Origin: Sutterella megalosphaeroides
Lineage (GTDB): Bacteria > Pseudomonadota > Gammaproteobacteria > Burkholderiales > Burkholderiaceae_F
Assembly (NCBI RefSeq): GCF_003609995.1
Contig: NZ_AP018786.1
Location: 1,746,001 to 1,810,000 of the forward strand
Length of the DNA: 64,000 nucleotides
Reading direction: 5' to 3'
In this document: positions 33,139-42,309 of the stretch, piece by piece
Numbering within the stretch: position 1 is the first letter of the stretch
Layout of the letters: every line of letters begins with the position of its first letter
Program-made: the position numbers and the translations under genes
The notes under the pieces: generated by a model
Seen by the model: only the letters and a program-made list of their open reading frames with translations
Told to the model about the DNA's origin: nothing
Databases searched by the model: none

Positions 33139-34290
33139 ATGGAATCCACCGAAGCAAAAGAAATCGCCCGTCAAATCGGCTTCAAGAATTTTCTCGACCT
33201 CTCCTCGGGCGTGAGCCTCGCCGCGGTCTTTCGCGAGGCGGGCCTCGCGGACACGCCCGCGGTCTACCTGCTCTTCGACTCGGAAACGAAGCGTCTCTAT
33301 ATCGGGCAGACGAAGCGCCTCCTCAACCGCTACGCCCAGCACGTCTACGACGGCCGCACGATCGACTACATCGCCTGGATCGTCAGCCCCGTAAAGCAGC
33401 TCGACGAGAAGGAGACTTCCTACATTGAGCGAGCGCTCGCACTCGGCTACAACCTTGTGAACAAGATGAAAATGCCCGCCTTCCGGACGGAGACGGCGCC
33501 CTACGACGACATCGTGCTCCCCGTTCGCCAGGACGAGCATCTCAAAAACGTGGGCCTCGGGCTCTTCTCCGACGCGCACCGCGTGCAGCGCGTCTTCGAA
33601 GGCTCGGACGCTCAGCAGCAGGAGCGGTGGGAGCGGCTGCGCGAGCACCCCCGTCACAAGGAGATGCTCGACGCGGCGCGACGCTACATCGAAGTGTCGA
33701 TCCCCGACTATCGGGAGACGGTCGGGAACTTCTGGACGCTCTTCGTCGCCCCGGCTTCGAAGCGCAACGCGGTGCTCCCCTGCGTTTCGATCGTGACGGG
33801 CCCCGTTCAGACGTTCGAGATCTACTGCTACAGCCGTTCGAAAGAGGCGTGCTTCGTCTCGATGGAGCTCTCGGCCTACACCCTTTTTCAGGCGCCCTCG
33901 ATGCTCGCCGACTTCCTGCGCGCTTTTCCCTGGGCGGACCTCGTCTGGGGCGAGACGCCCCTGCGAAGCGGCATGCCGCTTCCCGAATGGCAGGAACCTA
34001 CGGCCGAGGAGCTTCAGCAGTTTCTTCCGCTCCGTCGTCCCTACCCCTCTTACGAAGATCGGGAGGAAGACATCGTGCGTCCCGTGAGCCTCGCTCGCCT
34101 TCGACCATCCGTGACGCTCACCTGCACGCTCGAACACTTCCCCATGATCTTCGAGAAGTCCCTCTTGATCGAGACGGCCGCGTCGAGCTACGCCATCGCC
34201 TCGATGCGCCACAGCCGCATCGTGCATCCTGAAAACCACAATCCGATTGCGATGGCGGCAGTGCTCGGGGAGGCGAACATTGGTGAGTGA
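33139..34290 (+). CDS. GIY-YIG family nuclease-domain protein
   Basis: The N-terminal region carries a GIY-YIG-like fold signature: AVYLLFDSETKRLYIGQTKRL (about residues 41-61), then Arg and His in LLNRYAQHVYDG, matching the usual catalytic Arg and the helix after YIG. The rest of the 383 residues is unrecognised and may give target specificity; a segment VGLGLFSDAHRVQRVFEGSD follows the nuclease domain. No signal peptide. The ATG at 33139 follows CCCCTTTGCC, again without a Shine-Dalgarno sequence. It begins the accessory stretch after the transfer operon. Such proteins occur in mobile elements and repair; the exact role is unknown. Confidence 0.7.
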   Translation: MESTEAKEIARQIGFKNFLDLSSGVSLAAVFREAGLADTPAVYLLFDSETKRLYIGQTKRLLNRYAQHVYDGRTIDYIAWIVSPVKQLDEKETSYIERALALGYNLVNKMKMPAFRTETAPYDDIVLPVRQDEHLKNVGLGLFSDAHRVQRVFEGSDAQQQERWERLREHPRHKEMLDAARRYIEVSIPDYRETVGNFWTLFVAPASKRNAVLPCVSIVTGPVQTFEIYCYSRSKEACFVSMELSAYTLFQAPSMLADFLRAFPWADLVWGETPLRSGMPLPEWQEPTAEELQQFLPLRRPYPSYEDREEDIVRPVSLARLRPSVTLTCTLEHFPMIFEKSLLIETAASSYAIASMRHSRIVHPENHNPIAMAAVLGEANIGE

Positions 34291-35787: not shown

Positions 35788-36624
35788 ATGACGAAGCGCA
35801 CTCCCTGGTCCGAAGACGAAATTACGCTGGCGCTCGCGCTCTACTGCGTGACGCCCTACTCGCGCATTACGCCGCACACACCGGGTATCGCTCGGTTGGG
35901 CGAACTCTTGGGGCGCACGTCCGGAGCGGCGTCGATGAAACTCGCGAACCTCGCCTTCTTGGACCCGGCGGTCGCCGCAAGCGGTCGCAAGGGATTTTCG
36001 AACGGCTCCCGCGCGGACCGGGTCGTCTGGGAGCGGTACACGGCGTCAGGGAACCTCACGCAACTCGTCGAGGACGCTCAAAAAATTGCAGAGAATCTTG
36101 GTTTCTCGCTCGACGAAATCCTCGGAGACGCCTCCACGGTGTCGTTGAATTCTGTAGCCTTTGCGCACACGGAAACGCCCAAACTCCTTCCGGGCGAAAC
36201 CGAAGCGATGGCTCAAATTCGCATTCGACGCGGTCAAGACTTCTTCCGCCGCACCGTGCTCGCGAAGACGGGCGGCGCCTGTGCGATCACCCATTGCCCG
36301 ATCACGCAGTTGATCGAAGCCGCTCACATCCTTCCCTGGTCGGAATACCCCGAGCACCGGCTCGATGTGCGAAACGGCATCATGTTGAGTTCCACATTCC
36401 ACCGGGCCTTTGATACGAACCTCTTTGGTATCACGCCCGACGGGCTCATCGTCATTTCCGACGGCTGGCTCTCGAACTGCGGGGACGAGCGGCAACGCCA
36501 TTACCTCGACCAAGTCAACCATACGAACATTGATTTCGGTGACCGCTTCCGGGTCTCGCGCGAGTTCCTCGACGAGCGTTTCAGTCGGTTCGTGAAAGAG
36601 CACGGCTCGAGCCACCACGGCTGA
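35788..36624 (+). CDS. HNH endonuclease family protein
   Basis: The 278-aa protein has an N-terminal helical domain typical of a common HNH nuclease group: WSEDEITLALALYC, then RLGELLGRTSGAASMKLANLAFLDP. The C-terminal HNH core (about 150-235) shows RRTVLAKTGGACAITHCPI, EAAHILPWSEYPEHRLDVRNGIML and HRAFD, giving the His and Asn residues expected to bind metal. Such proteins are often annotated as restriction-like nucleases; the substrate is unknown. The ATG at 35788 has GAGGAAGGA upstream. No methyltransferase is nearby, so it is not a conventional type II restriction system. Confidence 0.85.
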   Translation: MTKRTPWSEDEITLALALYCVTPYSRITPHTPGIARLGELLGRTSGAASMKLANLAFLDPAVAASGRKGFSNGSRADRVVWERYTASGNLTQLVEDAQKIAENLGFSLDEILGDASTVSLNSVAFAHTETPKLLPGETEAMAQIRIRRGQDFFRRTVLAKTGGACAITHCPITQLIEAAHILPWSEYPEHRLDVRNGIMLSSTFHRAFDTNLFGITPDGLIVISDGWLSNCGDERQRHYLDQVNHTNIDFGDRFRVSREFLDERFSRFVKEHGSSHHG

Positions 36625-38660: not shown

Positions 38661-39062
38661 TTTGCATGCCTCCCAGGAAAGCCATCACGCTGTCGGGGCC
38701 GCGCATTTTCACTCGGCTCGTCCGTCGAGCGATCCGTCGGATTCCCATCGGGTGAGCAGTCCGTGTAGCGTGCTTTTTCTAACGTCGAGGTCGATTGTGC
38801 CGGATCTCGCACGGGTAGTCCGGGGTCCGCGGGAAGCTCGGGCGGCACCGGCAACGCGGTCGGTGCGCACGACGCAGGGGCCGCCGAACGGGGCGCCGCC
38901 CGCAACAACCCCCGCTCACCCTCCTCGACCCCCGACACCCCGAACCGATCGGCTGCACAATGTTCCGAAGCCGCGTGCGAAACGCGCCCGCGAGGCCGCC
39001 CGAGAGGCCGCTCGCTCAACGTCCGCTTCCGCCTGCCGCGCCAACCTTTTCGAGGAACTTTG
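38661..39062. other. 400-base gap, no supported gene
   Basis: The space between two divergent genes contains GC-rich sequence with Arg/Pro/Ala-rich chance frames on both strands. Promoters for both neighbours should lie here, but no convincing -35/-10 pair was found. GAGGAA near 39052 is the ribosome binding site of the next gene. Confidence 0.5.
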
Positions 39063-39668
39063 ATGACTCTTGCCGAACACCTACGCAATTTTCTCTGGAA
39101 CGACCGCATCGGTTTCGCCCGCTGGAAAGTTGCTCGCGAGCTGCTGAAAAAGCGCCCCGACTTTTTCAAGAAGCCCTCCTGCGGCGACCTCGAACTGCTC
39201 TCGGAACACATCGACGGGATGCCGACGGGCAGGACGGTTTTCTTTCCGCCGTCGGGCGTTGCCGGCATCGTCGCGGGCATGGACGACAAATTCGGGCGCG
39301 ACGATTCGTCCGACCGCCTCTTTCCTCCGATCTCCTGCCGCTGGAAGGACGAGGAAACGCCTGTGACGCCCGAGGCCATTCGGGCGGCGAACCTGGACCG
39401 CATCCGCGCGTTGGGATTCGTTGAAAACGGGCTCATCACGGCAACCCCCTCGATTCGGGGCTACGTGCTCATGACCTTCGACGACGCGACGGGCGAACAG
39501 GTCCTCATCCTCGTTCCCATTCGCGTCGTCCTCGAGCGCCTGCGCATGGGCGAGGACTACCGCAACATCCCGCCCGTCGAGGGCGAGCATCATCTTGACT
39601 GGTGGGCGGAACTTCGCCGCCGCTACCCGAAGGAGACCTTTTGGGTTCCGAGGCAGTACCGGCGATGA
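39063..39668 (+). CDS. Unknown soluble protein, copy 1 of a paralogous pair
   Basis: The 201-aa product has no signal peptide or membrane segment. It shares a block with the next gene: DGMPTGRTVFFPPSGVAGIVAGMDD, then FPPISCRWKDEE, ANLDRIRALGF, and a nearly identical C terminus (LRMGEDYRNIPP, then DWWAELRRRYPKETFWVP). The family is unknown to me. The ATG at 39063 has GAGGA nine bases upstream; a TTG codon directly before it is an alternative start. A decayed relative is found at about 51.94-52.02 kb. Confidence 0.75.
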   Translation: MTLAEHLRNFLWNDRIGFARWKVARELLKKRPDFFKKPSCGDLELLSEHIDGMPTGRTVFFPPSGVAGIVAGMDDKFGRDDSSDRLFPPISCRWKDEETPVTPEAIRAANLDRIRALGFVENGLITATPSIRGYVLMTFDDATGEQVLILVPIRVVLERLRMGEDYRNIPPVEGEHHLDWWAELRRRYPKETFWVPRQYRR

Positions 39669-39781
39669 GGCCGGCCCAAACCGCGCCCAAACCGCGCTCA
39701 ACCGCGTCGCATCGTGCCGCATCGTGCGCAAACACGGTGATGTCGGGCCGTCGACCAAGCTCTTTTTTTTCACACCCGACC

Positions 39782-40423
39782 ATGGACATTAAGGACATCG
39801 AGAATATTGAGGACGTCGCAGCCGAGTTTCGCCTCAATCCGCTGCAAAAACTCCTCCGGCGCATCCGCATCGCCATTGCCCGAAGGCGCGTTTTCCGTGC
39901 CATCGCCAAGCGCAATCCGAAGGCCCTCACGCAACTCTCCCGCGGCGGCATCGGGCTCCTTTCGATGCGCTGCGACGGGATGCCGACCGGCCGCACGGTC
40001 GACTTCCCGCCGATGGGCGTGGCAGGCATCGTCGCCTGGATCGACGACAAACTCAAAGACGGGCCCGAGCGCGTGTTCCCGGCGATTTCGGATCGCTGGA
40101 AGGACGACGAGCTCCCCTCGACCCCCGAAACCATCGAAGCCGCGAACCTCGACCGGATCGTCGCCTTGGGCTTTTTCGAGGGCGACCGGTTTCTCGTCGA
40201 GCCTAACATTCACTCAGGCGTCTTGATGACGTTCAACGACGAAACGGGCGAGCAGGTCTTTCTCACCGTCAGGATCACGGAGATCCTCGGGCGTCTCCGC
40301 ATGGGCGAAGACTATCGCAACATCCCGCCCGTTGAGAGTGCCGACGGTTCGGACTGGTGGGCGGAACTGCGCCGCCGCTACCCGAAGGAAACCTTTTGGG
40401 TACCGAGGAAGTACCGGCGCTGA
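39782..40423 (+). CDS. Unknown soluble protein, copy 2 of a paralogous pair
   Basis: This 213-aa protein is the paralogue of the gene before it, most similar from residue 65 (DGMPTGRTVDFPPMGVAGIV) to the end. The N terminus differs and is richer in basic residues (LLRRIRIAIARRRVFRAIAK). The ATG at 39782 follows CTTTTTTTTCACACCCGACC, a leader nearly identical to that of the unknown tra-cluster gene at 5919. No Shine-Dalgarno sequence is visible. Two diverged tandem copies suggest selection for variants, as in immunity or recognition proteins, but this is inference. Confidence 0.75.
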   Translation: MDIKDIENIEDVAAEFRLNPLQKLLRRIRIAIARRRVFRAIAKRNPKALTQLSRGGIGLLSMRCDGMPTGRTVDFPPMGVAGIVAWIDDKLKDGPERVFPAISDRWKDDELPSTPETIEAANLDRIVALGFFEGDRFLVEPNIHSGVLMTFNDETGEQVFLTVRITEILGRLRMGEDYRNIPPVESADGSDWWAELRRRYPKETFWVPRKYRR

Positions 40424-40631
40424 AACGCGGGGCTCTCGCGTTCGTATTCGGCCTGAACCGAAAAGGAAGGCGAGCCGAGTTCCGTCGACAAGCATCCGAC
40501 CGTCGGGGAGGCGCCCGGTGACGCATGACCGCGTCACACCGCCCGACGCGGCGGGCGGGTGCGACGCCCCGCCTCCGCTTCACGAAACAGTCCCGATTCC
40601 GGTTCCGGGTTGAGCCGGAACGACGAACCCT

Positions 40632-40915
40632 CATCCGGTCAACCACCCCTCCTTAAAAGGAGAGGCTTGAGCGATCAGGCCGGTTGACCAGCCTCAGTGA
40701 TCCGAAAGGAGAACTACGTTGCAGTTAGGTTACACGACCCGCCCCGGGGTGCTTCCTCAGCTCCGGGCTCCGGAAACGGCAGAAGCAGACAAGCTTTGGG
40801 TAAGCACGAAACGGTCTGCCGTTGCAATGCCGGACTGCACCATTGGCGAGGGGAATTCAACTTCTATGTTGATGTCACGGGGGTAACCCCCGATTAACAG
40901 TAAGGTTTACTAAAC
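40632..40915 (+). ncRNA. Omega RNA (HEARO-type guide RNA scaffold) of IscB
   Basis: The 280 bases before iscB are dense with stems. Pairings seen: 40637-40644 with 40682-40689; a hairpin 40649-40662; 40741-40749 with 40761-40768; a 9-bp stem 40775-40783 with 40815-40823 enclosing GCTT/AAGC at 40793-40805; CAATG/CATTG at 40825-40845; TCAAC/GTTGA at 40857-40872; GGGGG-TAA-CCCCC at 40879-40891; and AGTAA/TTACT just before the ATG. In characterised IscB systems the RNA is encoded directly upstream and its guide is the 5' end, lying in flanking DNA. The guide should therefore be about 16-20 bases upstream of roughly 40632. The exact boundary cannot be fixed by eye. Confidence 0.75.
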
Positions 40916-42241
40916 ATGTCAGTTTCAGTGTTTGTTCAGGACAGGAAGCACCGGCCTCTGATGCCGTGTCGACCCGCTCGGGCGCGAAGGCTCCTGAAAT
41001 CGGGCCGAGCTCGCGTCGTGAGACTCTTCCCGTTCACGATCCGTTTGACGGATCGGTTGATCGAGGACTCCAAGCTTCAGCCCGTCCTCGTGAAGATCGA
41101 TCCGGGCTCCCGTCGCTCGGGCTTCGCCGTTGTTCGTGTGGACGAGAAGGGAGATCATCATGCCCTCTTCTTCATCGAACTCGTTCATCGCGGCGCATCC
41201 ATCCGTGATGCATTGACCGGTCGCAGTGCCTGTCGCCGTTGGCGACGCGGGAATCTCCGCCATCGTGCCCCGAGGTTTCTCAACCGCACGAAGCCGCAGG
41301 GATGGTTGCCTCCGTCGCTTCGACACCGCGTGGATACCGCGACCGCATGGGTGGCGAAGCTCGTCAAACTCGCGCCCGTTACGGGGATCGTGGAGGAGCT
41401 CGTCAAGTTCGACGCGCAGAAGGTGCAGAACCCGGAAATCTCGGGCACCGAGTATCAGCAGGGGACGCTCTTCGAGTACGAAGTGCGCGAGTATCTTCTT
41501 GAGAAGTTCGGCAGGAAGTGCGTTTACTGTGGAGCGGAGAACGTTCCGCTCAACATCGATCACGTGGTCCCGAAGGCGCGTGGCGGTTCGAACCGCGTCT
41601 CGAACCTCGTGCTTTCCTGCGTGGACTGCAACCAAAAGAAGGATGCGCAACCTGTTGACGTTTTCCTGAAAAATCGCCCCGAAGTGCTTGATCGCATCAA
41701 GCGTCAAATCAAGAAGCCCCTTCGAGATGCGGCGGCGGTCAACGCAACGCGTTGGTCGCTCTTCAACGCGCTGAAGGCCTTCGGCCTTCCCGTCAAAACG
41801 GGGTCGGGCGCACTGACGAAGTTCAACCGCCATACGTTCGGCGTTCCCAAAGAGCACTGGCTCGACGCGCTCTGCGCGGGCCGGGTGAACGGGGTGCACT
41901 ATCCCAAGGGGATGGGCATCCTTCAAGTCCGTTGCACGGGACGGGGGAGCTATCAGCGCACACGGGTCGACAAGTACGGCTTCCCGCGCGGCTATCTGAC
42001 GCGCCAAAAACGCGTTCACGGTTTCGCCACGGGCGACATGGTGAAGGCCGTCGTTCCCTCGGGGAAGAAGGCCGGAGCCTACCTGGGACGCGTGTCTGTC
42101 CGTAAAAGCGGCTCCTTCAACATTCAGACGCCCGAAGGCGTCATTCAAGGTATCGGTTGGCGTCATTGCCGACTGCTTTCTTTCAACGACGGATATGGGT
42201 ATGCGTGGCTTTGCCCCGCACCTCATTCCTTCCCCGTCTGA
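40916..42241 (+). CDS. iscB: RNA-guided nuclease IscB
   Basis: IscB is the HNH/RuvC nuclease ancestral to Cas9, directed by omega RNA. All hallmark parts are seen in the 441-aa product: the N-terminal PLMP domain (RPLMP at residues 13-17); RuvC-I KIDPGSRRSG with Asp62; an Arg-rich bridge helix at about 107-125 (CRRWRRGNLRHR); RuvC-II with Glu160/161 (VEELVKFD); the HNH domain with Cys202/Cys205, Asp215-His216, Asn230 and Cys235/Cys238; and RuvC-III HWLDALCAG with His314/Asp317. The C-terminal part (about 330-440) fits the target-adjacent-motif interaction domain. Length is typical of IscB (about 400-500 aa). Catalytic residues look intact, so the enzyme is probably active. The stop lies in the loop of the terminal hairpin. 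Confidence 0.95.
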   Translation: MSVSVFVQDRKHRPLMPCRPARARRLLKSGRARVVRLFPFTIRLTDRLIEDSKLQPVLVKIDPGSRRSGFAVVRVDEKGDHHALFFIELVHRGASIRDALTGRSACRRWRRGNLRHRAPRFLNRTKPQGWLPPSLRHRVDTATAWVAKLVKLAPVTGIVEELVKFDAQKVQNPEISGTEYQQGTLFEYEVREYLLEKFGRKCVYCGAENVPLNIDHVVPKARGGSNRVSNLVLSCVDCNQKKDAQPVDVFLKNRPEVLDRIKRQIKKPLRDAAAVNATRWSLFNALKAFGLPVKTGSGALTKFNRHTFGVPKEHWLDALCAGRVNGVHYPKGMGILQVRCTGRGSYQRTRVDKYGFPRGYLTRQKRVHGFATGDMVKAVVPSGKKAGAYLGRVSVRKSGSFNIQTPEGVIQGIGWRHCRLLSFNDGYGYAWLCPAPHSFPV

Positions 42242-42261
42242 AGACGGGGGTTTCCTGAGGT
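42220..42261 (+). terminator. IscB 3' end hairpin (IS200/IS605-like)
   Basis: CCCCGTC-TGAA-GACGGGG (42232-42249) forms a 7-bp stem with a tetraloop that contains the iscB stop codon. An outer ACCTCA/TGAGGT stem (42220-42225 and 42256-42261) encloses it. Hairpins of this form mark the right end of many IS200/IS605-type units and may also terminate transcription. Confidence 0.7.
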
Positions 42262-42270
42262 ATTTCTATG

Positions 42271-42309
42271 AAAACCCCCTACCGGGTCAAGGCCCAAACG
42301 GGGAGTTTT
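42271..42309 (+). terminator. Second hairpin after iscB
   Basis: AAAACCCC (42271) pairs with GGGGAGTTTT ending at 42309 around a 20-base loop. The T-run at the end makes it a plausible Rho-independent terminator and possible outer limit of the IscB unit. Confidence 0.5.

Follow-up and report, generated by a model that had tools for sequence, protein, structure and literature searches.

Introduction

How a selfish element that carries an RNA-guided nuclease can persist without harming its host is the question raised by a locus in the genome of Sutterella megalosphaeroides. The window analysed here, a stretch of 64,000 nucleotides (nt) at positions 1746001-1810000 of contig NZ_AP018786.1, contains a gene for IscB with its omega RNA, of the HEARO class, directly upstream; protein and RNA together are a new member of IscB/HEARO, and the locus is almost certainly a mobile IscB element. 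Among relatives in the same bacterial family the ATG that flanks the right end of the element is in most cases a host gene's native start codon, and the right end itself carries a Shine-Dalgarno-like motif in most types; from these sequence patterns we infer that start codons are where the elements reside and that they bring a substitute for the ribosome-binding site, which would let the gene behind remain expressed. The explanation considered best, a non-autonomous IscB element at start codons with a substitute ribosome-binding site, is held to be probable as a whole, and no stronger word is used because a near-certain part, the mobile element, is joined to the interpreted part, the replacement site.

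Insertion at Start Codons

Fifty-seven loci were fetched from the family and the right end was located in 42 of them, which with six from the host genome gives 48 right ends; the other 15, where a contig end, decay, or a different kind of end left none to be read, were omitted. All 48 abut ATG followed by A or G. The first search used a pattern that itself contained ATG, and it was rerun with a profile stopping before the ATG; this gave nine more right ends, all with an ATG within 6 nt. L096 was kept out of the tallies for its Ns, and L029, L030, L111, and L121, which have no left end, were omitted where one was needed. The base after the ATG is A in 40 and G in seven of the 47 right ends tallied (the right flank of L083 can alternatively be read as GTGA), and the 43 left ends tallied all begin with G, nearly always as GTCAA. 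ATG[AG] is presumed to be the target-adjacent motif (TAM) of this branch.

An ATG was scored as start-like if it opens at least 75 codons and falls within the first quarter of the stretch between its two in-frame stops, a rule that overlooks some true starts, such as that of LeuD in L105. Start-like ATGs flank 29 of the 43 insertions having both flanks, against 107 of 600 ATG[AG] sites and 23 of 157 ATG[AG]A sites in the window, and six of 131 ATGA sites in right flanks from genome G022. The downstream frames of at least 60 codons outside the host genome number 34 (30 scanned with Pfam and three with NCBIfam; that of L125 unscanned). SerC, LplT, and LeuD align residue 1 to position 1 of the family model, LolCE and NtrC align residue 4 to position 1, and signal peptidase I aligns residue 3 to position 5; LptA downstream of an element likewise matches its family model. 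Because the models align from the beginnings of these frames, the flanking ATGs at these loci are true starts.

At ntrC in G022 the element sits between a Shine-Dalgarno-like stretch and the start codon. Relatives show the site without the element: of nine loci examined, eight align to the joined flanks through the junction and L138 on the right side only, and the start codons at the eight empty sites vary between ATG, GTG, and TTG; since the empty site is contiguous, there is no target duplication at that site. A Shine-Dalgarno-like motif closes the left flank in 15 of 43 insertions versus 105 of 600 control sites. In Sutterella wadsworthensis DSM 14016, a right end of the window type that has the GAGG stands at the beginning of two contigs, and an ATG with an open frame comes next. 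For copy c0k, a search of the other genomes of the genus with the joined flanks gave no match through the junction, only one chance-like match of 25 nt in G007.

A Shine-Dalgarno-like Motif at the Right End

The right ends fall into 16 types, and 14 of these carry a Shine-Dalgarno-like motif: 11 have AAGGA, AGGAG, or GGAGG immediately 5' of the terminal hairpin, at a distance of about 50-60 nt from the ATG, and three, all of the host lineage, have GAGG 11-12 nt before it; the remaining two types (L103 and L110) carry neither. For the stronger motif set the background is 60 of 1124 30-nt windows of element bodies. Neither member of the motif-less L103 type (L103 and L106) lies at a gene start. 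The predicted fold of the right end in the window has the iscB stop codon and the candidate Shine-Dalgarno motif in one hairpin (Table 1), a layout that could couple the downstream start to translation of IscB.

Elements that carry the Y1 transposase TnpA serve as a natural control. Scanning 51 TnpA loci with the right-end profile gave 17 matches of at least 30 nt; 15 of these are flanked by RTGR and lie at most about 120 bp from tnpA. In three TnpA elements of G022 the last 42 nt, 56 bp from tnpA, are identical to those of 16 of the 19 IscB elements of that genome; mobilization in trans, an option named in the original prediction made from the letters of this stretch, therefore fits. None of the 15 TnpA-element ends (11 distinct types) has a Shine-Dalgarno-like motif before the hairpin or beside the ATG, compared with 14 of 16 IscB types (p 6e-6, only a guide as the sequences are related), which suggests that TnpA can do without the motif. 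At least 75 codons lie behind the flank in seven of 15 TnpA elements versus 36 of 43 IscB insertions (p 0.013, again only a guide for related sequences).

The Element, Its Protein, and Its RNA

The host genome, a single contig of 2,725,161 bases, has four IscB genes and four HEARO RNAs. The other three full copies share 92-97% identity with the window copy across about 1.63 kb, two of the four being about 97% identical, and the flanks differ; the limits common to these copies are GTCAA.. on the left and ..TATTTCT on the right (Table 1). The original prediction had placed both ends about 6 bases early, at 40632-42261, and so stopped inside the right end, which proved the most informative part of the element. 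The right-end hairpin occurs six times in the genome, in the four full copies and in two relics truncated at the 5' side (L029 and L030), each with its right end directly before the ATG of an open frame, one of 392 codons that looks porin-like by eye and one of 77 codons that looks antitoxin-like by eye.

Table 1. Positions of the IscB element and its parts in the window
Feature	Position	Strand	Evidence or remark
Expected omega RNA guide, last 16 nt of left flank	40622..40637	+	Directly 5' of HEARO position 1
Whole IscB element, 1,630 bp	40638..42267	+	Limits common to copies with differing flanks
Omega RNA core (HEARO, RF02033)	40638..40861	+	94.6 bits, full-length model match
Leader, HEARO match to iscB start codon	40862..40915	+	Position only
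iscB	40916..42241	+	441 aa, RuvC/HNH residues intact; NF040563 428.5 bits; dN/dS (nonsynonymous to synonymous substitution ratio) 0.26-0.46
Right-end hairpin, iscB stop codon 42239-42241 in loop	42220..42261	+	Fold -30.9 kcal/mol, z -3.1; right-end profile match (profile includes window)
GAGG, candidate Shine-Dalgarno, in 3' arm of outer hairpin stem	42257..42260	+	7 nt gap to ATG; putative function
ATGAA, flanking insertion motif, presumed TAM; opens 57-codon frame	42268..42272	+	48/48 right ends abut ATG[AG]

A complete IscB with its omega RNA had been claimed for this locus, and profile searches with both models confirm it. The open reading frame (ORF) is intact with an ATG start, and its match to the NCBIfam model 'RNA-guided endonuclease IscB' is well over the cut-off of 175 (E 1.3e-128); Pfam RRXRR and HNH also both exceed their cut-offs, and the PLMP segment that had been pointed out is recognizable in the translation. 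The catalytic residues of RuvC and HNH, D62, E161, H216, and D317, are all present. Across 25 full-length IscB ORFs from the family D62, E161, H216, and H314 never vary, and 24 of the ORFs keep D at position 317; Glu160 and Asp215, which had been named along with these catalytic positions, are not conserved. The pairwise dN/dS range in Table 1 is that among the four iscB copies of the host genome. HEARO matches from model position 1 to 211, the complete model (gathering score 83, E 4.9e-18), and no other Rfam match in the window reaches gathering score. Neither an absent HEARO match nor a loss of RuvC/HNH residues, both looked for as grounds for dismissing the claim, was found.

The guide, taken as 16 nt long as in characterized IscBs, is predicted to lie in the left flank, and this stretch varies from copy to copy. 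A second target for the window guide in its own genome was sought at up to three mismatches; five places matched, the best being the left end of the window element itself, and none of the five is followed by ATG.

No tnpA lies within the element, as the original prediction had noted; the host genome has two Y1 TnpA genes, both outside it and each beside a tnpB-like frame (by eye). The element is therefore classed as non-autonomous: it has the terminal hairpin and the fixed flank motif at one end that mark IS200/IS605 elements, and lacks the Y1 transposase of its own that marks autonomous ones. The absence of tnpA is ordinary, because only a few HEARO/IscB nucleases are found together with TnpA according to PMC9755519.

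Alternative Explanations

Several observations weigh against a replacement ribosome-binding site at start codons. By the rule used, 14 of the 43 insertions are not start-like, and copy c1364k lies inside an open frame. The ATG of the window copy itself opens a frame of only 57 codons, upstream of a porin gene; this copy and three others have frames below 60 codons and a left flank without the motif. The null for start-like ATGs was taken from one window, and insertions in the same genome are not independent. L110 is motif-less, yet it faces the start of a repressor-like gene. The GAGG of the window is paired within the predicted hairpin, and in two folded types AGGAG can pair with UUUCU just before the ATG, so that the motif may be structural, or masked; in some elements it coincides with iscB codons. 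Finally, an end match was obtained at one of the two TnpA loci in the host genome, and it is weak (13.3 bits, flank GTGG).

The alternative that survives best is that these are ordinary IscB elements and nothing further, the start-codon bias arising from the ATG[AG] target plus loss of gene-breaking insertions, and the motif being structural or a chance product of the C-terminal codons of IscB. The pairing with UUUCU and the overlap with iscB codons speak for it, and insertions at intergenic ATGs would be enriched for start codons anyway; however, TnpA elements whose ends are of this kind lack the motif in every type and more rarely have a long frame behind the ATG, the motif is kept in short or non-coding contexts (L105, L109, L121, L124, and L125), and the one type that includes L103 and L106 has neither motif nor gene starts. 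On balance this alternative is doubtful, if a serious contender. It is unlikely, to a further degree, that the window copy is stranded, that is, intact and no longer moved because no resident TnpA fits its ends: the weak GTGG-flanked match at one resident TnpA element would agree with this, and the intact ORF, its dN/dS, and the presence of four copies, two of them nearly identical, argue the other way. A domesticated IscB with a non-transposition role, which the original prediction had raised from the missing tnpA and with which purifying selection on the ORF would agree, is very improbable and was rejected on copy number and patchiness, the window copy being one of four full copies with defined element ends and a fixed flank motif at unrelated sites, HEARO being present in just eight of 12 genomes of the genus (21 of 67 in the family), and G022 having 21 HEARO matches in one genome, several of them internally deleted yet keeping the same ends.

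Proposed Mechanism

For an IscB element that supplies its own ribosome-binding site at start codons, the following sequence of events is proposed. A non-autonomous element of IS200/IS605 type carries IscB and the omega RNA, and a Y1 TnpA encoded elsewhere, the putative catalyst, would move it in trans via its ends and place it directly 5' of ATG[AG]. The guide of the omega RNA would be drawn from the left flank and would therefore match the site beside ATG[AG] when the element has left it or has yet to enter; by analogy with known IscB/TnpB biology, IscB would cut that site and repair from the inserted copy would restore the element. As the flanking ATG is mostly a native start codon, insertion would sever the gene from its own Shine-Dalgarno sequence, and the right end may bring the substitute, an AAGGAG-like stretch just 5' of the hairpin in most types and GAGG in its 3' arm in the lineage of the window. 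Since the iscB stop codon of the window element is placed in the hairpin loop, ribosomes completing IscB could unfold the hairpin and may then restart on the host gene. Whether this branch of IscB/HEARO is specialized for start codons, with flank motif, guide, and element end jointly parting a gene's Shine-Dalgarno sequence from the ATG and giving it in exchange one of the element's own whose use is coupled to IscB translation, we consider evenly balanced.

If the proposal is true, relatives of the ancestor of Cas9 live as leaders of host genes; important genes, among them serC, lolC/E, lepB, ntrC, and lptA, can host the element, their expression comes to depend on it, and a host dropping the element silences the gene behind. 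It would also explain the two relics that retain only the right end before porin-like and antitoxin-like frames.

Relatives and Neighbouring Frames

IscB relatives are common: 91 plasmid and 127 phage records match, with 80% or more of the query covered in 57 and 12 of them, respectively. Fourteen annotated regions with an IscB relative were chosen from these records and read; HEARO is present in 11. The next annotated coding sequence begins exactly at the apparent element limit in six of them (L144, L147, L149, L151, L152, and L153, by eye); in the other eight the limit is off the annotated start, or no coding sequence on the same strand follows. On a Deinococcus plasmid iscB stands between the parA and parB genes.

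Five short derivatives in the family sample (L071, L074, L109, L124, and L125; 319-779 bp) keep both ends and resemble miniature inverted-repeat transposable elements. In G011 (C4:8905-10815; L042 and L044) two IscB elements of the same type lie close together with Ns between them. A second HEARO lineage comprises L117, L118, and L126 (G001 and G009), and perhaps L115 (G027); its ends resemble terminal inverted repeats (GGCTATTTCCC... / ...GGGAAATAGCC in those read), not hairpins, and L126 has a transposase-like frame nearby that appears IS256-like by eye.

Just left of the element in the window, the neighbouring frames at 39060-39668 and 39602-40423 resemble each other in C-terminal sequence, match nothing in Pfam or NCBIfam, and look like a local duplication. 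Farther left, the frame at 35788-36624 is an HNH_2 nuclease that matches phosphorothioate-dependent restriction endonucleases below threshold, and 33139-34290 has a sub-threshold GIY-YIG match (21 bits, cut-off 22.6).

Comparison with Known Systems

HEARO elements as described by Weinberg et al. in 2009 are said to insert beside ATGA or GTGA, in agreement with ATG[AG]; that work is not known to report gene starts or a ribosome-binding site carried by the element. Literature searches, made as ranked lists whose coverage did not include the original HEARO/IscB studies, returned no recognized case of IscB at start codons with a built-in Shine-Dalgarno-like motif.

The element is like OgeuIscB (PDB 7XHT, 7UTN) and TbaIscB (9K30) in its match to the IscB model, its RuvC and HNH residues, the HEARO omega RNA directly upstream, and the guide position at the left flank. 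It differs from characterized IscBs in that the right end of its relatives is fused to start codons, and in the flank motif, ATG[AG] here versus the TAMs NTAAA for OrufIscB and NWRGNA for engineered OgeuIscB given in PMC13180657. With IS200/IS605 elements that carry TnpA and TnpB the group shares the terminal hairpin, the identical 42-nt end in G022, and an RTGR flank; the window element differs in having no tnpA, and the Shine-Dalgarno-like motif is absent from the ends of TnpA elements. IStrons, which combine an intron with an insertion sequence, are alike in that insertion is made harmless to the host gene (PMC4227781); they do so by splicing RNA, whereas a replacement ribosome-binding site is proposed here.
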